From the NCBI GenBank assembly GCA_028685815.1, contig JAQUDG010000003.1:1-50528 (forward strand): 50,528 nt of DNA, read 5' to 3'. Positions within the stretch are counted from its first letter, which is position 1. Each line of letters begins with the position of its first letter. Origin of the DNA: Desulfuromonas sp. (lineage in GTDB: Bacteria > Desulfobacterota > Desulfuromonadia > Desulfuromonadales > Desulfuromonadaceae). A program made the position numbers and the translations under genes. Shown one piece after another: positions 1 through 45,357 of this stretch. Under the pieces are notes generated by a model that was given only the letters and a program-made list of their open reading frames with translations, did no database searches and was not told the DNA's origin.

Positions 1-416
1 ACCGACAATGATTCAGACAGTGATTTCTCTACTTCGGTGCTGAACCAACTCTCGATAGAGTTGGTGATAAATGCAGCGGAAGCAAAAAACAGCAACAACG
101 TAGGTATTAGGGATAGGGATACGAAGGTAGCAACCAGACGCGTGCGTAACTTAGCGCCAGGAGTGTTACGCCTGCGCTCCAGCACAAGTTTTAGAATGTT
201 TCTGAAGATCAGAAAAAAGAACAGGATGACGAGTAGGATATTTAGATTGATTAGGGCTAGAACCAGAATATTGTTAGATATTTGGATTTGCGCTGCTTGC
301 TCGAATAAAAGGCGCTTTAAAAAAGGAAATACGCCGATTAGAATGACACTTAGAACTATGAGTGTCCATTCGCGTCTGCGTTTCCGTTGTTCTTGGCCGG
401 ATTTTGGTCTGAGCAT
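1..416 (-). CDS. NtrY-like sensor histidine kinase, N-terminal part (runs off the window)
   Basis: Reading the minus strand from an ATG at 416 gives an open frame of 138 codons to the window edge. It begins with a basic stretch (KRRREW), followed by hydrophobic helices (around residues 18-32 and 50-70), an RRR-containing loop, and a third helix containing LIPTLLLFF and then SIESWFS. That layout is typical of NtrY, the membrane kinase of the NtrY/NtrX two-component pair. An AGGAG lies about 12 bases upstream of the ATG, which supports the start. The kinase core would lie beyond base 1 and cannot be checked. Open frames on both strands that overlap this stretch are out-of-frame shadows. The family call is fairly secure, but the signal sensed is unknown. 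Confidence 0.75.
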   Translation of the reverse strand, partial: MLRPKSGQEQRKRRREWTLIVLSVILIGVFPFLKRLLFEQAAQIQISNNILVLALINLNILLVILFFFLIFRNILKLVLERRRNTPGAKLRTRLVATFVSLSLIPTLLLFFASAAFITNSIESWFSTEVEKSLSESLS

Positions 417-530: not shown

Positions 531-555
531 AAAAAAGGCAGCCACGAGGGCTGCC
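531..555 (-). terminator. Rho-independent terminator of lpxC
   Basis: Read on the minus strand, the 7-bp stem GGCAGCC / GGCTGCC with a 5-base loop (537-555) is followed directly by six T residues (531-536). It lies 31 bases past the lpxC stop codon and separates lpxC from the ntrY-like gene. Confidence 0.85.
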
Positions 556-585
556 TTCAAAAGTATTAACTATGAGTTTGATTGA

Positions 586-1509: not shown

Positions 1510-1581
1510 AGTAATAACTCCTTTGTGGAGGATTTTTTGTAGAGTCGTGTGATGTGCACACATAAGCTTACTTAAGAGATA

Positions 1582-1597
1582 AGCAAAACCCGTGCCA
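1582..1597 (-). promoter_or_regulatory. Sigma-54 (-24/-12) promoter of lpxC
   Basis: The minus strand reads TGGCACG-GGTT-TTGCT. This matches the RpoN consensus TGGCACG-N4-TTGCW at every defined position, with the GG and GC doublets at the required spacing. Transcription would start near 1571, giving a leader of about 60 bases to the lpxC ATG at 1509. Confidence 0.75.
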
Positions 1598-1880
1598 CGT
1601 ATCGGTGCTAGGGTAAGCATCTGTATTGATTGGATATATATATTCGGGGGAGAGTGTGGGCGGATTGGATGTGGTGTTGTTGCATCGAATCGTGTTGTTG
1701 ATGTGTTGCTGCGGTCACACCTGTGACATTGCTGTTGAGCTCACTTAAAAGGTGTTCGATTTATGCACAGCGTTAGGAGTGCTTTTTCACGGAATTGATT
1801 CGGGCACTTTATCTGGGAGGGTAAGCCTAAGAAGGCGACATCCTAAGCTTGGGTTGTTGAAGAGTTCCAACTGTTATTGT
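1598..1880. other. Gene-free spacer between lpxC promoter and ubiB-like gene
   Basis: No credible reading frame is seen in this stretch. An alternating TATATATA tract lies near 1634-1644. Around 1829-1856 the minus strand can form an 8-bp wobble-containing hairpin (AAGCTTAG with TTAGGCTT), but no T-run follows, so it is at best a weak 3' structure for the ubiB-like gene. An enhancer for the sigma-54 promoter would be expected in this spacer, but none could be recognised by eye. Confidence 0.4.
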
Positions 1881-3572
1881 TTAAAGACGCCCGGAACCGA
1901 TGATGGCAATCGCAAGCCACAGGCCTAAAAATGCGGCGATTGAATATCCGAACAGTCCCAGAGCGGGTAACCCGAAAAGTTGAGGGCCAGCCCCAGTCTG
2001 CACAATCAGGGAAGAACCGATTATCAACGATCCAATCACGAAGCTGAATGAGATTCTATTGCTGGATTGATCCATAGTGCGGATGAGGCGTTCAAGGCCG
2101 CGGTGCTCAAGGTCAATTTTGAAATTATTGTTGGTTATACGAGACAACAACTCTTTAAGGTCAACGGGAAGAGCCTTGGTGACTTCATAGTAATCGCGTA
2201 GAATTTGCTTGAATTCTCGGCGTAGATGTTCACTTGAATGGCGCTTGCGAATCAGGACTTCCACTGCCGGGCGTACCTCATCAATGAGATTGAAGTCAGG
2301 ATCGAGGTTGCGCCCAATTCCTTCAATGGTTATTAGTGCTTTTGCCAAAAGGATCAGGTTAGAAGGAAATTTTATTTTATGCGCCCGGATGATGGCGAGA
2401 AACTCAGTAATGAACCTATATGAGTCGATACGCTTCAGAGACAGGTTGTAATAATCTTCAATGAAGGTGGCCAGATCACGTTTAAGGGTGTTCTTGTCGA
2501 TATCCCGAGCGCCGGGTCGTGTGCTGATGAGAAGGGAAGCTAGTTCGTCAGCGTTTTTGCTGAAAATACTCAGAATAAGGGTTGCAAGTTGTTGTTTGCT
2601 TTCTTCGTCGATGAGGCCAACCATCCCTAGGTCGAGAAAGCACAGGCGTCCGTCCGATAGCACAAAAAGGTTGCCCGGGTGGGGGTCAGCATGAAACATG
2701 CCGTGGTCGATTATTTGTGCCATAAAGGCCTGCGCGCCGTCGTGCGCCAGACGTTTAAGGTCGATATTCTGGTGTTTGAGCTCAGCGGTGGCGGATATCT
2801 TTGTCCCTTCAATAAACTCCATGGTCAGCAGGGCTTCGGTCGTGTAGTCCCAATAGACTTCAGGAATATGGACGCGATCGTTGGAAGAGAAGTTGCTCTT
2901 AAAGCGGCACAGATTGTGCGCCTCTTTGACGAAGTCGAGTTCGCGGTAAATGGTGCGTCTGAATTCCCGGACAATCTCTTCAGCAGAAAAGAGCTTGCCC
3001 ATGTTGCCGTGGGTGTCGATCAGGCTAGCAAGGTTTTCGAGGATATCCAGGTCTGTGGCGATGGTTCTTTCTATGCCGGGGCGGCGTACCTTCAGCGCAG
3101 CCCATTCCCCGGTGCACAATTGGGCTTTGTGGACCTGTGCCATTGAGGCCGCAGCTGTGGGGATGGAGTCTACATGCCTGAAAAACTCTGTTGTCGCGCC
3201 GCCTAGCTCTGCTTCGATCTGCAAGCGTATCTGGCTCCAGTCAACAGCACCGACTTTATCCTGCAGGTTGTTGAGTTCAAGAATGTAGCTGGCGGGGATG
3301 ATGTCAGCTCGAGTAGAAAGCAATTGCCCCAGCTTTATAAAAGTTGGTCCCAGCTCTTCAAGCGCCATGCGCAGACGCACCTCGTCTGGAAGGCGCTCAA
3401 GAGCCTTTTTTTTTGCGTCTCTGGTGATGATACGGCGTCCAAGTTCGAGATAATAATCGATGTTAAGCTGTTCGATTATATGCCCGAACCCGTGTCCGAC
3501 CAGGACTGAGAGTATTTCACGGTAGCGTTTCAGCGAGCGCAGATTTCGGTTGACGCTGAGCAATGAAAGCAT
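1881..3572 (-). CDS. ubiB: UbiB/ABC1-family atypical protein kinase
   Basis: This 563-residue protein has the full set of UbiB family marks: KLGQ (the KxGQ helix), the alanine-rich loop AAASMAQVH, the lysine in ALKVRRPG, HADPHPGN, and DLG in place of DFG. Two hydrophobic helices close the C-terminus (about residues 500-525 and 535-563), anchoring it in the inner membrane. Relatives are ATPases that assist ubiquinone synthesis; no other quinone gene is present here, so its exact partner is unknown. It starts 16 bases after the phasin-like gene and probably shares its transcript. No strong ribosome-binding site precedes the ATG at 3572, which suggests translational coupling. Confidence 0.85.
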   Translation of the reverse strand: MLSLLSVNRNLRSLKRYREILSVLVGHGFGHIIEQLNIDYYLELGRRIITRDAKKKALERLPDEVRLRMALEELGPTFIKLGQLLSTRADIIPASYILELNNLQDKVGAVDWSQIRLQIEAELGGATTEFFRHVDSIPTAAASMAQVHKAQLCTGEWAALKVRRPGIERTIATDLDILENLASLIDTHGNMGKLFSAEEIVREFRRTIYRELDFVKEAHNLCRFKSNFSSNDRVHIPEVYWDYTTEALLTMEFIEGTKISATAELKHQNIDLKRLAHDGAQAFMAQIIDHGMFHADPHPGNLFVLSDGRLCFLDLGMVGLIDEESKQQLATLILSIFSKNADELASLLISTRPGARDIDKNTLKRDLATFIEDYYNLSLKRIDSYRFITEFLAIIRAHKIKFPSNLILLAKALITIEGIGRNLDPDFNLIDEVRPAVEVLIRKRHSSEHLRREFKQILRDYYEVTKALPVDLKELLSRITNNNFKIDLEHRGLERLIRTMDQSSNRISFSFVIGSLIIGSSLIVQTGAGPQLFGLPALGLFGYSIAAFLGLWLAIAIIGSGRL

Positions 3573-3989: not shown

Positions 3990-5975
3990 TCAGCTAGGTG
4001 TGTGCAATTCCAGCCCCAGTTGTGACGCAATCTCTTGGCATATGTTCCATGGCGGGAGGTTCAGCTCCTTCCAGAATTTGTTAGCGAAGCGTTTCGCAGC
4101 GGCTGAGGTTTTCAAGTGTACATGGGCTTCCTGCATGATATGCAGATAGGTTTGGTTGAGATCACGCAGATACTGGAGCAGGACTTCCTGACACTGCCCT
4201 TCATTAGCTGGGAGAAGTACATCGATGTCCAGATACGAAGCCAGCACTAGCGCATATGCATGTGGAGCCCGTGCTTCACAGATTTGGTCCTGTTCTTTGT
4301 TACATAGTGAAAAAAGCCCCATAAAGGTTTGGCATATATGCCATGGACCCTTATCAAGGTGAAACTTTTTCAGATTTTCTGCTGGGATATTGAAAACATA
4401 TGTAGTGGGGAATTGTGGCACCCCTTGGGAGTCCAACTCGTGGATCAGCTGCTGTCGCAGATTCTGCTGTTTGTTGCCGCTAATACGTGGTGTAGGAGCG
4501 CTCGCGTTTTGGGCGCTGTCAAGTTGTAGTGCAGAATAAAAGGCGGCTATTGGATCTTCAAGTGCGTGCCATGAGATTTCGGATTTACTCTCAGTGTAGA
4601 ACGTGGTGGCTTCGTCCTGGGGGCCTGACTTGCGCAGTAGAAGTTCGACATTGCCGGTTTCAGGGCGGTATCCTGCACCAGCAAGTGTCATGCAGGAATG
4701 AATCAAGGTCAGAACCTTGTCGCACCCCACAGCCTGAAACAGATCGGGTGCAAGGCAAGCGTAGATGCTTTCACCTTCGGCGAGAATGCCCAGCAAATAG
4801 GTGAACTGCCAAAGACCCATCGGGGTGGACTTCGTCAAGTTTATGCGCCGCCCCGGCCATGCGGTGCGCATGTGGGCATTAAGGGCATCAACTCTGGCTG
4901 CGTCAGGTTTGACGCTAGAGAAAAAGCAGGCGCTGCAATGGGTGCGTGGTAGCGGCGTAGGGACTGAAAAAAGTTGCTCAAACTGATTTGTAATGCAGGT
5001 GTCTGCGTTACCCAGTTTGCGCGCCAAATTTTTGAATAAAAGTCTCGCGCCGGTATCAACTTCGATTTCAAGCGTACCGGGTTCTACTTCAGGCATATAA
5101 ACTGAAATCCCGGATGGAGGCAGGTCAAAGCTTTTTTGTTGTTTACAGCTTGGATGAATGGTGCTGCTCAGTAGCTGCTCGAGCATGGCGCAGGCACGGG
5201 CGCGATTCCCCCGAAATAGGTCAATTTGATCCAAGCGGCGCAGCAGGTTGTGCAGAAGAATGCTACTTTTCTTGTCCAATCCCACTTCTGGCTCTTCAGC
5301 TTTTAAGCCTGAGTGCAGATCAGAGAGATCTTTTAGAGTTCTGTCCAGAATTTCAGGCTTGGTCTGGGAGGGAAGGGTGTCGGCATGAAGTGCGGTAAGC
5401 ATGCGTGCCACACAGAGTATTAGCTTGCTGTGAGCCTGCTGTGCTGCACTTTCGCCATCACTTAAGTTCTTACGGCGCAGGTATGCGCTCAGGCTTAGAG
5501 TCCCTTGGGTAACACTCTGCAGGCACAGATTACTGATATGCCAGCTGGTGAGTTCGTTGTTGCTCTTGGCTTCTATCACAGCCAGAAGCTTAAATTGATC
5601 TAGGAGCTCAGTCAGTCCATCGATATCTGAGTGAGGCTCCAGCTCAAAACGTTTTTCCAGAGTCTCTGCCTGCCAGATGATTATTTGGTTGGAGCTCCAG
5701 GTGGCAAATTGATTTAGCGCCAAAGCTTCGGCGCATGCCTGTGCCTGCTGAAGTAGTTCAGGCAATAGTTGTGGCTCCGGACAGAAAAACACGCAGCCAC
5801 CAGCAATGCAGCTATCCCGATTTATCCAGAAAACTAGATCAGGAGTGACGTATCCGCCCGCAGTAAGCAGGGCAGAATCGGTAGTGATTTTGCGAAAAGG
5901 GTAGCGTCCTTGGGTGATTATGCCGCGCGCTTGGAAGCGGAGCTCTTCCGCAGAGGCAATGGTGTTAGCACTCAT
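3990..5975 (-). CDS. Conserved-looking hypothetical protein of 661 aa in the ruv operon
   Basis: I do not recognise this protein. It is soluble (no signal peptide or membrane helix), rich in Leu, Gln and Cys, and lacks Walker or HTH motifs. The N-terminal 100 residues look like a compact alpha/beta domain (ITQGRYPF, TPDLVFWINRD, FATWSSNQIIIWQ). A middle region contains a CSAC pair and the segment PMGLWQFTYLLGILAEGESIY. The C-terminus is helical. It begins 9 bases after the ruvB stop codon, so it is almost certainly co-transcribed and translationally coupled with the Holliday-junction genes. Codon use resembles its neighbours, with no sign of recent import. A role in DNA repair is suggested only by position. 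Confidence 0.6.
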   Translation of the reverse strand: MSANTIASAEELRFQARGIITQGRYPFRKITTDSALLTAGGYVTPDLVFWINRDSCIAGGCVFFCPEPQLLPELLQQAQACAEALALNQFATWSSNQIIIWQAETLEKRFELEPHSDIDGLTELLDQFKLLAVIEAKSNNELTSWHISNLCLQSVTQGTLSLSAYLRRKNLSDGESAAQQAHSKLILCVARMLTALHADTLPSQTKPEILDRTLKDLSDLHSGLKAEEPEVGLDKKSSILLHNLLRRLDQIDLFRGNRARACAMLEQLLSSTIHPSCKQQKSFDLPPSGISVYMPEVEPGTLEIEVDTGARLLFKNLARKLGNADTCITNQFEQLFSVPTPLPRTHCSACFFSSVKPDAARVDALNAHMRTAWPGRRINLTKSTPMGLWQFTYLLGILAEGESIYACLAPDLFQAVGCDKVLTLIHSCMTLAGAGYRPETGNVELLLRKSGPQDEATTFYTESKSEISWHALEDPIAAFYSALQLDSAQNASAPTPRISGNKQQNLRQQLIHELDSQGVPQFPTTYVFNIPAENLKKFHLDKGPWHICQTFMGLFSLCNKEQDQICEARAPHAYALVLASYLDIDVLLPANEGQCQEVLLQYLRDLNQTYLHIMQEAHVHLKTSAAAKRFANKFWKELNLPPWNICQEIASQLGLELHTPS

Positions 5976-9522: not shown

Positions 9523-11805
9523 TCACTTCTGGTGTTTGAAATCGGCTCTGTTCAAATGATGCTTTTCAAGCAAGCGGTAAAAACTTCGCCTTGGGATCTG
9601 CGCCTGCCTTGCTGCCAGAGCTACATTGCCAGCACTTTTGTGCAGATATGTTTTTATCAGTCCCTTCTCGATCAAGTCTGCCTGTCTTTCCATCTGGGCG
9701 CGCAAAGATGCCGCGTCGGGGTCTGAGTCTGAAGCTTTCCCGCCGATTAGTTCAGTGAACACCACTGGTAGGTTGGCCAAATGAATACAGGTGTCGTTGG
9801 TCAGCACCGCTGCACGCTCTATAATATTCTGTAGCTCACGGATATTTCCGGGCCAGTGGTACAGGCGCATAGCATCGATAGCGTTGCGGTCGATACTGTC
9901 GATATGTTTATTCACTCGCTTGCTAGCGTGGCGTAGAAAATGTTCGACCAATTCTTCCAGCGCACTGAGACGACTGCGCAAGGGAGGCATGGTTATAGAA
10001 AAGACATTTAAGCGATAGAATAGGTCCTCGCGGAACCATCCTTCTTCCAGGCCATGTTCGAGATTTTTATTGGTTGCCGCTATCAGGCGTACATCAACTT
10101 TTTTGCTTTTGGTGCTCCCGATGGGACGTATTTCACCACTGTCGAGAACCCGGAGCAATTCAGCCTGCAATTTCGGGGTAATATCCCCTATCTCGTCTAA
10201 GAAAATAGTGCCGCTATTTGCCGCTTCAAACAGCCCTATTTTATCACTTATGGCGCCGGTAAATGCCCCTTTGCAGTGCCCGAAAAGTTCACTCTCAAGC
10301 AGGCTATCGTTGAGGGTGGTGCAGTTCAGGGTTACTAGGTGTCGGTCTGCCCTGGGGCTCACCTCGTGGATAGCGCGTGCCGTTAGTTCCTTGCCGGTGC
10401 CACTCTCTCCGCGGATAAGAACCGTGGTCGGAGTCGGGCCAACTTGGTGGATAAGGTTCAGAACGTCGGCAGTGTGGATATCGTTGCCCACGATGGATAT
10501 TTCTCCAAATTCCTGTGCTAGGGCGTGTTTTGCCAACTCGTATTTTTGGGTGAGGATAAGCCGGTCCTCTTCGAGCCTTTTTAGGGCAAAGGGCGGACAC
10601 ATCTCAATTTCTGCCAGCCCTTGGTGTACTGCAATGGCATGATCACGGCACGTGCTGTAACCGCATCCACCACAATTTAATTCATCAGCCGCAGTGCGTT
10701 TGTTGGTCTGCTGTAAGATTTTGCGCACACTTTCACTGCTAGGGAGCTCCAGGGGCTTGTGTTTGTTGTAAAATTTACGGGTGAGGTCCGTTTCTAGGTG
10801 TTCAGTATTTGCCACAGCGGGCTCACGGTAGGAGATGTCTCGGCGGCGATAGTGGCACTGGATAAGCTTTTGTTTGGAGTAGGTGGTAAGGCGGTTGTTT
10901 TTACCTGGTCCGCCGATACAGCCGCCGTTACAGAAGCGGATGTCAACCAGTTTGGCCTCAATGCGACCTGCGGCCAGATCACGGATTATCTCCAGCGAGT
11001 TTTGTTCCCCTTCACTGCAGATATACTCGGGATTAGCAAAGTCGGGATGGATGTCGAGTACCTGAAATGGCCCGCCGCTGATGGGGAACAGGCAGCCTCT
11101 ATCTGGTTGGTGTCCGTTAAATGGGGTGGAGCCCAGGCGCGCGAGATCAAGTTTGTGGCGGTTGAATAGCTGGCTGAGTTCTTGATAGGTGAGGACGACA
11201 TCGATGGCGTCAGCCACAGCATCTGCGTAGATTTCGAATTTGCCTGCGATGCATGAACTGATATAGACCACACTTGCGTCTGCGCCATGTTGCCCTTTGA
11301 GCATCCGCCCCATGGCTACCATCGGAGACACCACCGGCATCAGATTTTTGATGATCTGTGGGTAGTGGCGTTCGATAAGATCGACAATGGTGGGGCAGTG
11401 TGAAGCTATAAGCGGAGCCGCGGCTTTGGTTTTGAGGTGCTTGCGATATTCGTGACTGAGCAATTCTGCGCCATATGAACCCTGATGCACCTCATCGAAG
11501 CCCAGACGCCTAAGGCCAGTAACGAGTTGATTGGGGGATATGTCCTTAAAAAAAGCCGGGTAAGAACAGCCAAGAACCGCTATTTTGCGATTCTTCTGTG
11601 CCAGGATTTGCACAGCATTTTCATAGCTGTCCGCCACAACTTTTGCCTTTTGGGTGCACACGGCAATGCATTTTCCGCAGCCTATGCAGCGTGAATGGAT
11701 AACTTCTACATGGGTTGGGCGCACGCGTATAGCCTTGACGGGGCAATTGCGCACGCAGGCGTAGCATTTTTGGCAACGTTCTTTTACGGTTTTAATCGGA
11801 CCCAT
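9523..11805 (-). CDS. Sigma-54-dependent activator fused to a ferredoxin and [FeFe]-hydrogenase-like sensor
   Basis: The 760-residue protein has three parts. Residues 1-55 hold two ferredoxin-type 4Fe-4S motifs (C11/14/17/21 and C40/43/46/50). Residues 70-330 resemble the large-subunit domain of [FeFe]-hydrogenase: Cys137 in SHCP, Cys185 in SSCIAGKFE, Cys292 and Cys296 in FCNGGCIGG align with the four ligands of the H-cluster 4Fe-4S part. The usual proton-relay Cys before Cys137 is His. A further CxxC-C-C motif (C378, C381, C386, C403) resembles the PF04060 cluster domain. Residues 435-670 are an AAA+ sigma-54 activator with GESGTGKE, GAFTGA and FLDEIGD. A Fis-type HTH ends the protein. There is no receiver or PAS domain, so the iron-sulfur part is the likely sensor, for H2 or redox state. 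GGAGC precedes the ATG. Confidence 0.85.
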   Translation of the reverse strand: MGPIKTVKERCQKCYACVRNCPVKAIRVRPTHVEVIHSRCIGCGKCIAVCTQKAKVVADSYENAVQILAQKNRKIAVLGCSYPAFFKDISPNQLVTGLRRLGFDEVHQGSYGAELLSHEYRKHLKTKAAAPLIASHCPTIVDLIERHYPQIIKNLMPVVSPMVAMGRMLKGQHGADASVVYISSCIAGKFEIYADAVADAIDVVLTYQELSQLFNRHKLDLARLGSTPFNGHQPDRGCLFPISGGPFQVLDIHPDFANPEYICSEGEQNSLEIIRDLAAGRIEAKLVDIRFCNGGCIGGPGKNNRLTTYSKQKLIQCHYRRRDISYREPAVANTEHLETDLTRKFYNKHKPLELPSSESVRKILQQTNKRTAADELNCGGCGYSTCRDHAIAVHQGLAEIEMCPPFALKRLEEDRLILTQKYELAKHALAQEFGEISIVGNDIHTADVLNLIHQVGPTPTTVLIRGESGTGKELTARAIHEVSPRADRHLVTLNCTTLNDSLLESELFGHCKGAFTGAISDKIGLFEAANSGTIFLDEIGDITPKLQAELLRVLDSGEIRPIGSTKSKKVDVRLIAATNKNLEHGLEEGWFREDLFYRLNVFSITMPPLRSRLSALEELVEHFLRHASKRVNKHIDSIDRNAIDAMRLYHWPGNIRELQNIIERAAVLTNDTCIHLANLPVVFTELIGGKASDSDPDAASLRAQMERQADLIEKGLIKTYLHKSAGNVALAARQAQIPRRSFYRLLEKHHLNRADFKHQK

Positions 11806-33288: not shown

Positions 33289-35301
33289 ATGGCGTATTTT
33301 GCCGTAATAATCGGGATAGCGGGTTTTGCCATGGCTATCACTCTGTACAACAAGGTTAAGGCAGAGCCAGTTGGAAGCGAGAAGCTGGCTGAGATTGCTG
33401 AGTCTATTCATTCAGGGGCTATGGCTTTTCTTAATCGGGAGTATCGCGCTCTGGCTATATTTGTCGGCGTTGTATTCGTCCTGATAGCGATTAGCATGGA
33501 GATTCAGACCGCGCTGGCGTTTCTTGGCGGTGCAGTATGCTCTATGTCCTGTGGCTTTATCGGGATGAAGGCAGCGACGCGTGCCAACGTGCGCACCACA
33601 GAAGCTGCACGGCAACATGGACAGGCCCGTGCCCTTGAAGTTTCCTACAACGGTGGCGCAGTTATGGGGCTTTCCGTTGCTTCGTTGGGTCTTGTTGGTC
33701 TCGGGATAGCCTACATCTTCTTTGGTGGCGACCCGACTACAGCGACTTACATCAATGGGTTTGCCATGGGTGCTTCTTCTATTGCCCTGTTTGCCCGTGT
33801 GGGTGGGGGTATTTACACCAAAGCCGCTGACGTCGGTTCTGACCTGGTTGGTAAGATTGAAGCTGGTATTCCTGAGGACGACCCACGTAACCCTGGGGTT
33901 ATTGCGGATAACGTTGGTGACTGTGTGGGCGACACCGCAGGTATGGGTGCGGATATTTTTGAATCCTATGTGGGCTCAATTATCGCAACCCTGGCAATCG
34001 CTGCTGCTGCAAGTCCCGAACTGCTGGCTAAGCTCGGTTCGAACGGTGAGGCTACCCGTTCCGCCGCCATGCTTCTGCCTCTAGTATTGGTGACTTTTGG
34101 GCTGATATTTTCTTTTGCCGGTATCTACGCTATGAAGCGTTTCCAGGATAAAGATCCTGCGACTGCACTGCGCCTGACTACCTTTGTTGCTGCCGGACTA
34201 TTCATCGTGGCATCACTGCTTATTATCCCCATAATGGGCTTGAGCTTCGGGATCTTTATGGCCCTTGCCGCAGGTTCTTTAGCGGGTATCGCCATCGGGC
34301 TTGTTACCGAATATTACACTGCGGATGCTCCGGTTTTTCGCATCGCTGAAGCGAGTAAGACAGGTCCAGCTACAAATATTATCAGCGGCCTTGCCGTAGG
34401 TCTTGAGAGTTGTGTTGCACCTATCCTGATCATTTGCGCGGGTATTCTCGTGGCCAACTTTTTTGCTGGGCTTTATGGCATAGGCATTGCTGCGGTCGGC
34501 ATGTTGGCTACTGTTGGAGTAACCATGACAGTCGACGCATATGGTCCCATCGCAGATAATGCCGGTGGTATCTCGGAAATGGGTGGTCTTGGCCCCGAAG
34601 TACGCGCAATAACAGACGGCCTCGACGCCATTGGCAATACTACTGCTGCCGTTGGTAAGGGCTTCGCTATTGGCTCGGCTGCGTTGACCGCTTTGGCGCT
34701 GTTTTCGGCCTATGCAACAACGGTTGGCCTGCAGACCATCGACCTGATCCAACCTAAAGTAGTTGTTGGGCTTTTTATCGGTGGGTGCATCCCGTTTCTG
34801 ATCGGCGCTATGACCATGAATAGTGTTGGGCGCGCAGCTTCACAGATGGTAGATGAGATCCGGCGTCAATTCCGCGAGATTCCTGGCCTGCTTGAAGGGA
34901 AAGAAGGAGTCAAACCTGAGTCAGAAAAGTGCGTTGACATTTCTGCTAAGGCGGCCCTGAAAGAGATGATTCTTCCAGGTGTGATCGCAGTTCTTGCGCC
35001 ACCCGTAATCGGATTCCTTCTTGGTAAAGAAGCTCTGGGCGGTATGCTCGCTGGTGCTACTCTTGCGGGTGTGCTGCTTGCCCTGATGATGTCCAATGGT
35101 GGCGGTGCATGGGATAATGCCAAAAAATACATCGAAGGTGGCAAGCTCGCCGGTGAAGAGAAGGGTGGCGTTGCTCATATGGCAGCGATTGTCGGCGATA
35201 CAGTAGGTGATCCGTTCAAGGATACCTCCGGTCCAGCCATGAATATCCTGATCAAACTGATGAGTGTTGTATCTCTGGTATTGGCACCACTGCTTGTATA
35301 A
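33289..35301 (+). CDS. hppA: Membrane-bound ion-pumping pyrophosphatase, K+-dependent type
   Basis: The protein has 670 residues and about 16 membrane helices, coupling pyrophosphate hydrolysis to H+ or Na+ export. [22 protein letters not shown] and DNVGDCVGD are the substrate-binding loops. [10 protein letters not shown] has Ala and Gly at the positions that mark K+-dependent enzymes (Lys and Thr in K+-independent ones). IFESYVG keeps a membrane Glu at the position used in Na+-pumping and related bacterial enzymes, so the pumped ion is uncertain. Second half: [13 protein letters not shown] and [15 protein letters not shown]. Confidence 0.95.
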
Positions 35302-43980: not shown

Positions 43981-45357
43981 ATGGTGGTAGTAAAGCACAT
44001 AAAAGAACTAATTTTAGCCTTGCTATACTTGCTCCTGCTGACACCTTTGATCGGCAGAGCGCAAGCGGAGCACGATCCTTTTCATGGATATGTAAATGTG
44101 CGCTATCGCTACGAATTCCAACATAATTTTAATTTTAAGCATTATGGAAAAAACCCACTAAAAGGTGAGCGTTCCGATGGGTTCTTGCTGCAGCGGGTGC
44201 AAGCCGGTGGGCGTTGGGCGTTTGCGCCCAATATTCATGTGGCTTTGGGAGTGCAGGACGCTAGAGTATTTGAAAGCAACTATGATTCGGATCTGTTCTA
44301 CAGCAAAAGATTTGATCATAAGCACAATGCTTACGAAGACCAGTTCGAGCTATATGAAACATATCTTGAAGTTTCGGATGAGACCGCCGAACTTTGGACG
44401 TTCAAGGGCGGTAGACAAACTATTCTTTATGGTGATTGCAGGATATTCGGCTCTGGCAGTTGGGGCAATTCTGGTGGCTATCAATGGGACGCTATAAAGC
44501 TGTCGTTAAAGCATCGAAAGCACTTTATTGATTTTATTTGGGGGGGTGTCGTCATCCATGAGCCAGAACAATTCAGTTTGCGTCATCGGCATAAAGAGTA
44601 TGGAGCAGGCTTCTACAGTCATCTCCAAGTGTCATAGTACGTTGAGCTTGAACCATTTTATCTGCTCAAATATGATCTGCACGAGCGTTATACTGCAATT
44701 TCAGGCACGGCTGTGGATGATCTGATATGCCATAATGCGGGATTTCGTGCTGCGGGGGATTTTTCACCGCTGTTTTTTGACCTAAACCTTGTCCACCAGT
44801 GGGGAGATTACGGCAGACAGCGCCTAGATGCATGGGGAGCACATCTGCTGCTGGGGACTAAATTTGACCATTATCGGTGGAATCCGATCCTTAGTATTGA
44901 GTACAGTTTTGCATCGGGAGATTCTGATCCTGATGATGGTAGGATGGAGACATATCAGGGTGTGTTTGGTGCCCGCGATAAAATGTATCGGCGCATGCAT
45001 TTTATGGACTTGAGCAACTTGCACGATCTTCAGTTTAATTTAGAGCTAGTGCCGTTAAAAAATGTGCAGATTTATTTCGGTGCGCATAGATTCTGGCTTG
45101 ATGAGAAAAAGGATGGATGGTCGAAGAATTTTAGCACCTATCGTGACTTGTCAGGTAGCAGTGGTCGCCATCTTGGCGATGAAGTTGACTTTATGCTGCA
45201 ATGGAACTTGGACGCAGTTGTGTTTGACTCCAAGGTACGGTTTGTTCTTATGGCAGGATACTGCCATTTCTGGCCCGGAGAATTTTTAAAAAATGTCGCA
45301 GATGGCAGCCAGGCAGACTGGGTTTTTACCCAGATAGAGTGTAAATATGTATTTTGA
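43981..45357 (+). pseudogene. Outer-membrane porin (alginate-export-like) interrupted by an in-frame TAG
   Basis: A signal peptide (basic start, leucine-rich core, cut near AQA-EHDPF) leads into sequence rich in alternating aromatic/polar strands, as in the alginate_export (PF13372) porin family. Codon 219 (44635-44637) is TAG; the same frame then continues without another stop for 240 codons (FYLLKYDL, DFSPLFFDLNLVHQWGDYG, FASGDSDPDDG) to TGA at 45357, and the C-terminal strand ends YVF, an outer-membrane assembly signal. The full product would be about 457 residues. The second half lacks its own ribosome-binding site. A recent nonsense mutation, a sequencing error or amber readthrough can each explain this; AAAAGGGG precedes the start codon. 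Substrate is unknown. Confidence 0.7.

Follow-up and report, generated by a model that had tools for sequence, protein, structure and literature searches.

The stretch of DNA analysed here, referred to as the window, comprises the first 50,528 nucleotides of contig JAQUDG010000003.1 in the assembly GCA_028685815.1 of a Desulfuromonas sp. Near its left end lies lpxC, preceded by a ubiB/aarF-type gene and followed by a terminator-like stem and the beginning of a gene for an NtrY-like kinase, with a sigma-54 promoter element, an IHF-like position and a dyad in the 371-nt interval between ubiB and lpxC (Table 1). Elsewhere in the window, a 760-aa protein encoded at 9523-11805 on the minus strand combines 4Fe-4S and iron-only-hydrogenase large-subunit domains with an AAA+ domain of the sigma-54 activator type and a Fis-type HTH, and reads as a sigma-54 regulator to which a hydrogenase-like sensor has been fused. 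Two adjacent open reading frames on the plus strand (43981-44637 and 44713-45357), the second matching Pfam Alginate_exp from profile position 199 and the first without a match, look as if one outer membrane protein gene had been split. A 661-aa reading frame between ruvB and a phasin gene (3990-5975, minus strand) has no Pfam match, and the loci L032 and L033 carry similar-sized reading frames at the equivalent position.

Table 1. Features at and around lpxC, in window positions.
Feature	Position	Strand	Remark
NtrY-like sensor kinase, N-terminal part	3..416	-	truncated by contig end; remainder and ntrX on contig C8
Intrinsic-terminator-like stem, 10 pairs, T-rich tail	534..558	-	after lpxC
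lpxC, 307 aa	586..1509	-	LpxC profile matches
Sigma-54 -24/-12 promoter element TGGCACG-N4-TTGCT	1582..1597	-	exact match, conservation
IHF-like bend site position (WATCAANNNNTTR)	1614..1626	-	weak here, 3 mismatches by eye; position-locked in relatives
Upstream activator dyad TGTG-ACCGCAGCAA-CACA	1702..1719	-	centred 113 nt upstream, counted from the T of the -24 box
ubiB/aarF-type gene (Pfam ABC1)	1881..3572	-	upstream of lpxC, same strand

The lpxC product passes the family cut-offs of both Pfam (357 bits, cut-off 27) and TIGR00325 (338.8, cut-off 187.25), and is the only LpxC match in the genome. The longest open reading frame would extend its N-terminus to 1620; this extension was rejected because homologues begin at the equivalent of 1509 with a shared M-L/I-x-Q-x-T, and the start was placed there. 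The gene context was followed in the 29 loci of the order, out of 57 lpxC matches, that had enough flanking DNA: 26 have ubiB upstream of lpxC and 28 have ntrY downstream, the lone miss for ntrY (L017) stopping at a contig edge. A terminator follows lpxC in 25 of the 29, the window's own among them, so that lpxC looks like its own transcription unit and not the head of an lpxC-ntrYX operon. The idea of a single lpxC-ntrY-ntrX operon with positive feedback, which had also been considered, is weakened by this terminator. Between ubiB and lpxC no terminator was found, the scan giving 2 matches in 56 loci, both of which overlap the dyad (at 3 of the 56, where the ubiB stop could not be placed, the scan covered the last 350 nt); read-through from ubiB into lpxC is therefore possible.

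The preliminary description had read a full TGGCACG-N4-TTGCT consensus on the minus strand, 70-90 bases before the lpxC start codon. A pattern scan of the window bears this out: the element, TGGCACGGGTTTTGCT, with the spacer GGTT, has 0 mismatches and lies 73-88 nt from the start at 1509. The exact pattern TGGCACGNNNNTTGCW occurs once in the whole 2,597,042-base genome, namely at lpxC, and its backwards control does not occur at all. At up to two mismatches the window holds 10 matches against 10.8 expected, a count that is uninformative alone, so the weight is carried by the exactness and position of the match. A looser pattern, TGGCAYRNNNNTTGCW, finds 3 sites in the genome including that at lpxC, against 2 for the backwards control; one of the others lies within the reading frame 33289-35301 of the window and the third at the 3′ end of a Lon-like reading frame (named by eye), about 250 nt before an HU/IHF-type gene. 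The -24 GG and -12 GC of the lpxC element stand at the fixed 10-nt spacing in a near-consensus setting, and RpoN is encoded in the genome. Compared by eye with the RpoN consensus TTGGCACGGTTTTTGCT of Geobacter sulfurreducens, as given in the passages of PMC2725144 on that consensus, the element agrees at 15 of 17 positions. Transcription of lpxC is predicted to start at about 1571, which would leave a leader of about 60 nt. An inverted repeat, GTGTG-CACAT-CACAC, is found within the predicted leader (1547-1561, minus strand), in a stretch that is absent from the sister species.

Conservation of the site in relatives had been named as a check, and it was followed through the order with a sigma-54 weight matrix of our own making, entered from general knowledge. 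The 58 genomes yielded 56 usable lpxC loci from 55 genomes and 20 families; G028 and G053 have no lpxC match, and the G046 locus, with only 29 nt of upstream DNA, was left out. When the 150 nt before the start were scanned, the best match fell 35-111 nt upstream at all 56 loci, and it outscored all 100 shuffles in 54 of them, the exceptions being G014 (1/100) and G034 (3/100). Matches of at least 12 bits over the 250 nt upstream of lpxC were found at 51 of the 56 loci, where dinucleotide shuffles lead one to expect 0.75, and at none of the 56 on the reverse strand or in the next 250 nt further upstream. When the columns were compared one at a time, GG did not vary and GC hardly did (C in 95%), whereas most surrounding bases drift, and the spacing from the site to the start differs among the loci. 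That the match is due to chance, or that the stretch is conserved for some other reason such as a leader RNA or a coding overlap, is hardly credible: the chance-level count of two-mismatch matches in the window would fit it, but not the near-fixed GG and GC among drifting neighbours, the variable distance to the start, or the dyad conserved independently further upstream. Since the site is conserved across these 56 loci it is not a chance match, and, as far as sequence can tell, it is almost certainly a real RpoN promoter.

An additional housekeeping promoter had likewise been suggested as something to look for. In a consensus scan of the order loci, sigma-70-like pairs occur before lpxC at 8 of 56 against 7.5 expected, without enrichment, and the scans of the lpxC strand gave nothing above chance. 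These numbers bear on the alternative that the sigma-54 promoter is a minor, conditional addition and that read-through from ubiB, or a housekeeping promoter too diverged to score in a consensus scan, supplies the bulk of lpxC mRNA. Such a supply would be in keeping with the lack of a terminator between ubiB and lpxC and with the essentiality of lpxC in E. coli and Pseudomonas, as mentioned in the relevant part of PMC3333781, which makes a basal supply plausible. It is nevertheless an unlikely account, carrying some residual weight, in view of the chance-level sigma-70-like sites and of the fact that the columns that stand out as conserved around the site and the dyad are those of the sigma-54 box and the dyad, with an IHF-like element less pronounced. 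The preliminary claim of RpoN control of lpxC thus gains support from the conserved -24/-12 element, the conserved dyad and the absence of sigma-70-like enrichment; because basal lpxC transcription from ubiB is possible, RpoN need not act here instead of a housekeeping sigma factor.

The dyad, TGTGg-N8-cCACA, was exposed when the upstream sequences were anchored on the sigma-54 site. In upstream stretches of up to 220 nt, the strict form TGTG-N10-CACA is present at 44 of the 56 order loci, where mononucleotide shuffles, run twice, gave expectations of 0.25 and 0.05, and when spacers from N0 to N20 were compared only N10 was strongly enriched (N12 gave 9 and the others at most 2). The best dyad, or the first-listed where several were equal, scores 8-10 of 10 and lies 92-127 nt upstream of the -24 box at all 56 loci, with equal-scoring dyads also at 75-81 nt in G027 and G036. 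Enhancers of NtrC-family activators stand roughly 80-200 nt from the transcription start, and the position and conservation of TGTG-N10-CACA make it a candidate enhancer for such an activator. In the Desulfuromonas genome itself the only composite of dyad and -24/-12 element is the one at lpxC. A search of all 58 genomes found 59 such composites, where the backwards control found 3; of the 59, 37 (in 35 genomes) are at lpxC and 22 elsewhere, so that the activator may have other targets in some relatives. In G031, G045 and G053, which belong to one genus, one composite match each lies away from any lpxC found and might mark a second target of the same activator; those of G031 and G045 are similar in sequence. 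Between dyad and promoter, the IHF-like motif WATCAANNNNTTR was found with at most one mismatch at 18 of the 56 loci against 3.7 expected, and with at most two at 38 against 24.1; at 27 of these 38 its centre falls 21-23 nt upstream of the -24 box. The Desulfuromonas genome has four HU/IHF-type genes.

Which activator would bind the dyad was approached through the neighbouring genes. The N-terminus of the window's own NtrY scores 20.2 against Pfam NtrY_N, below the cut-off of 23.2. The regulator encoded with it on contig C8 has the domain order expected of NtrX (receiver, AAA+ sigma-54 domain, Fis-type HTH), carries GAFTGA and finds its best full-length match in NF051870; it is called NtrX-like here because its score of 516.9 misses the NCBIfam equivalog cut-off of 600. 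A set of named loci was also used, namely the best 80 matches of one search, which is a biased sample and in which phyla were taken from the record titles. Seventeen of these have ntrY after lpxC. Five stop too early to show what follows, and in 8 of the 12 that are long enough an ntrX-type gene comes directly after the kinase, as on contig C8; L039, L050, L065 and L069 run 1.7-2.6 kb past ntrY without ntrX, and L065 and L069 still have the site and the dyad. In six loci, L050, L061, L067, L074, L077 and L079, lpxC is followed by ntrY, and in three of these by ntrX as well, and no 12-bit site lies within 250 nt.

Across the phylum outside the order, an NtrX-like match (E <= 1e-130) accompanies the site in every one of its 25 genomes and occurs in 12 of the 28 that lack it (Fisher p 2e-6 over 53 genomes, a value that ignores kinship). 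For this comparison 54 of the 58 non-order genomes were scored for NtrX and PilR, those with no full LpxC (G059, G099, G100 and G106) being left out, as was the second G104 locus; 30 candidates per genome were scored in nearly all genomes. In G071, G072 and G109 the NtrX-like gene lies far from lpxC on the same contig and the site is present. A PilR-like regulator of the Desulfuromonas genome, named by eye, served as the control. At 1e-130 it finds a match in 12 of the 25 site-bearing genomes and in 14 of the 28 others (counted by eye), and at the cut-off of 1e-115 in 25 of 25 and 26 of 28; it has no link with the site comparable to that of the NtrX-like regulator.

It might be argued that promoter and enhancer are real and that the activator is another NtrC-family regulator, for instance a counterpart of D. 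vulgaris DVU2934, if that is not NtrX. DVU2934, whose operon also encodes a histidine kinase and an HD-GYP regulator, is described as binding lpxC in the section of PMC3333781 devoted to it. The Desulfuromonas genome holds 16 more matches to NtrX at E <= 1e-40, at least three of them with GAFTGA, and there are the 12 phylum genomes with an NtrX-like match and without the site, as well as several named ntrYX loci that lack it. The adjacency of ntrY to lpxC in 28 of 29 order loci and of ntrX to ntrY in 8 of 12 named loci weighs the other way, as do the presence of an NtrX-like match in every one of the 25 phylum genomes with the site, even when the genes are far apart, and the want of any such association for the PilR-like control. 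We regard a different activator as improbable, if worth keeping in mind, and NtrX as the reasonably likely activator of the lpxC promoter on the grounds of gene order and co-occurrence.

A survey at the level of the class showed that LpxC splits into two groups, type A, which resembles that of the window, and type B (282-302 bits). The site is present at 20 of 21 further type A loci (8 in the order, 13 outside), and the same 20 have a dyad of at least 8 of 10; the exception, G142, is a type A locus in the order without site and without dyad. Type B loci have the site in 0 of 29 cases (28 plus G082), and in the five genomes where both types occur only type A has the site. One type B genome without the site, G082, does have an NtrX-like match. 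The type B lpxC of G117 (locus L305) comes after a cysE-like reading frame, named by eye. When an NtrY-like gene was sought near type B lpxC, the 8 kb of L305 gave only a kinase match of 24% identity, and L306 gave no match.

Over the phylum outside the order, from which G114 with 33 nt of upstream DNA was left out, 25 of 54 lpxC loci have the site (21/28 plus 4/26), and in many of the genomes without it the LpxC reading frame stays open far upstream. The dyad is weaker here than in the order: it reaches at least 8 of 10 at 14 of these 25 loci (5.9% of shuffles do) and at least 9 of 10 at 10 of them (0.3% of shuffles). Among the named loci, sites of at least 12 bits were found in Myxococcota, Nitrospirota and some Desulfobacterota, sites of only 9-11 bits in Acidobacteriota, and none reaching 10 bits at the loci of Campylobacterota or of alpha-, beta- and gammaproteobacteria. 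The dyad recurs in four Desulfobacterota loci (L065, L066, L069 and L073), is perfect in two from Acidobacteriota (L084 and L093), scores 9 of 10 in the Nitrospirota locus L075 and is weak in L096 and L099 of the same phylum; the named Myxococcota loci have the sigma-54 site and no dyad. In L048, L082, L089 and L098, three of which are titled Nitrospira or Nitrospirae, a shared TGGTATCTA-NN-TTGCT stands 16-153 nt before the lpxC match and is possibly a group-specific form of the sigma-54 site.

From these elements we infer the following course of events. RpoN-RNA polymerase would bind the -24/-12 element and stay in the closed form until an NtrC-family activator in its phosphorylated form, most probably the NtrX-like partner of NtrY, binds the dyad; NtrY would be the sensor of the signal. 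DNA looping, aided in many relatives by an IHF-like bend, would bring the activator to the polymerase, and ATP hydrolysis would open the promoter. Transcription would then run through lpxC and mostly end at the terminator that follows it, and the commitment to lipid A would be set transcriptionally by a signal that is probably related to the envelope, while read-through from ubiB may supply a basal level of lpxC. Taken as a whole, the reading that we consider rather likely is that lpxC has a sigma-54 promoter of its own, with NtrX as the most probable activator. Full dependence on RpoN is argued against by the type B genes and the ntrYX loci that lack the site and by the possible read-through from ubiB.

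The control of LpxC is known mainly from enterobacteria, where its level is set by proteolysis. A promoter of the sigma-54 type requires an activator, and LpxC carries out the first committed step of outer-membrane lipid synthesis; expression of lpxC thus seems to await a signal and not to be simply constitutive. If the conserved promoter holds, a two-component signal sets an essential envelope enzyme in a large group of environmental bacteria. One might go further and suppose that NtrYX-sigma-54 control of the commitment to lipid A is ancestral in a number of diderm phyla (Desulfobacterota, Nitrospirota, Acidobacteriota and perhaps, without this enhancer, Myxococcota) and was lost or replaced elsewhere, and that where it is the sole strong lpxC promoter it helps to explain why rpoN cannot be deleted in certain of these bacteria; this broader proposal is tentative and on present evidence rather doubtful.

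The essentiality of rpoN is a puzzle: in the passages of PMC2725144 on this point RpoN is indispensable in G. sulfurreducens, M. xanthus is cited as the sole other case, and the reasons are said to be unknown. The RpoN regulon described there has a -24/-12 consensus nearly identical to the lpxC site here, and its main text contains none of the terms "lpxC", "lipid A", "UDP-3" and "deacetylase". Many genomes of the class to which G. sulfurreducens belongs have type B LpxC only, without the site, and the lpxC promoter as the cause of rpoN essentiality in that species is weakened by this type B lineage. Part of the puzzle becomes testable all the same; for bacteria that have type B LpxC only, a different reason must apply. 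A comparative study (PMC3162934) ties sigma-54 to LPS and other surface polymers generally, with neither "lpx" nor "lipid A" in its main text, and the main text of a 2025 review of lipid A regulation (PMC12444477) contains neither "RpoN" nor "promoter". Among the open-licence matches listed, no title or abstract opening reports an NtrX enhancer at lpxC or a TGTG-N10-CACA dyad.

Sigma-54 control of lpxC as such has precedent. In Myxococcia, COG0774 (LpxC) is among the groups predicted to be sigma-54-enriched (PMC12316311), and a predicted lpxC promoter in Leptospira is cited in PMC12655853; in both, a sigma-54 promoter before lpxC is thus predicted as it is here, and the relevant passages mention neither a conserved enhancer nor an activator for lpxC. 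In our own data the Myxococcota loci have the sigma-54 site and lack this dyad. A close likeness is to D. vulgaris, where DVU2934, a sigma-54-dependent NtrC-family regulator with GAFTGA, has lpxC (DVU2917) as its sole target according to the parts of PMC3333781 and PMC4641369 that treat it, the latter, a sigma-54 regulome paper, filing this target under lipid A biosynthesis. The two systems would share sigma-54-type control of lpxC and differ in that the partners of DVU2934 are the histidine kinase and HD-GYP regulator of its operon, whereas here the neighbours are ntrY and ntrX and the dyad is TGTG-N10-CACA. In the same part of PMC3333781 the validated DVU2934 motif before lpxC is found in Desulfovibrio only, lpxC of Syntrophobacter fumaroxidans is placed directly upstream of the regulator operon, and the authors consider that elsewhere the regulator may recognise a different motif before the same gene; to this question, posed in 2011, of another motif for the lpxC regulator outside Desulfovibrio, TGTG-N10-CACA offers a direct candidate. 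A connection between NtrYX and the envelope is described for Rhodobacter sphaeroides in the corresponding passages of PMC7240162, where the system governs envelope genes and its loss raises lpxC mRNA 8.8-fold and LPS about twofold; the lpxC gene there has no NtrX site, the proposed motif being GCA-n9-TGC, and the effect is termed indirect. The effect in R. sphaeroides runs in the direction opposite to that proposed for Desulfuromonas, in which the dyad lies directly upstream of lpxC.
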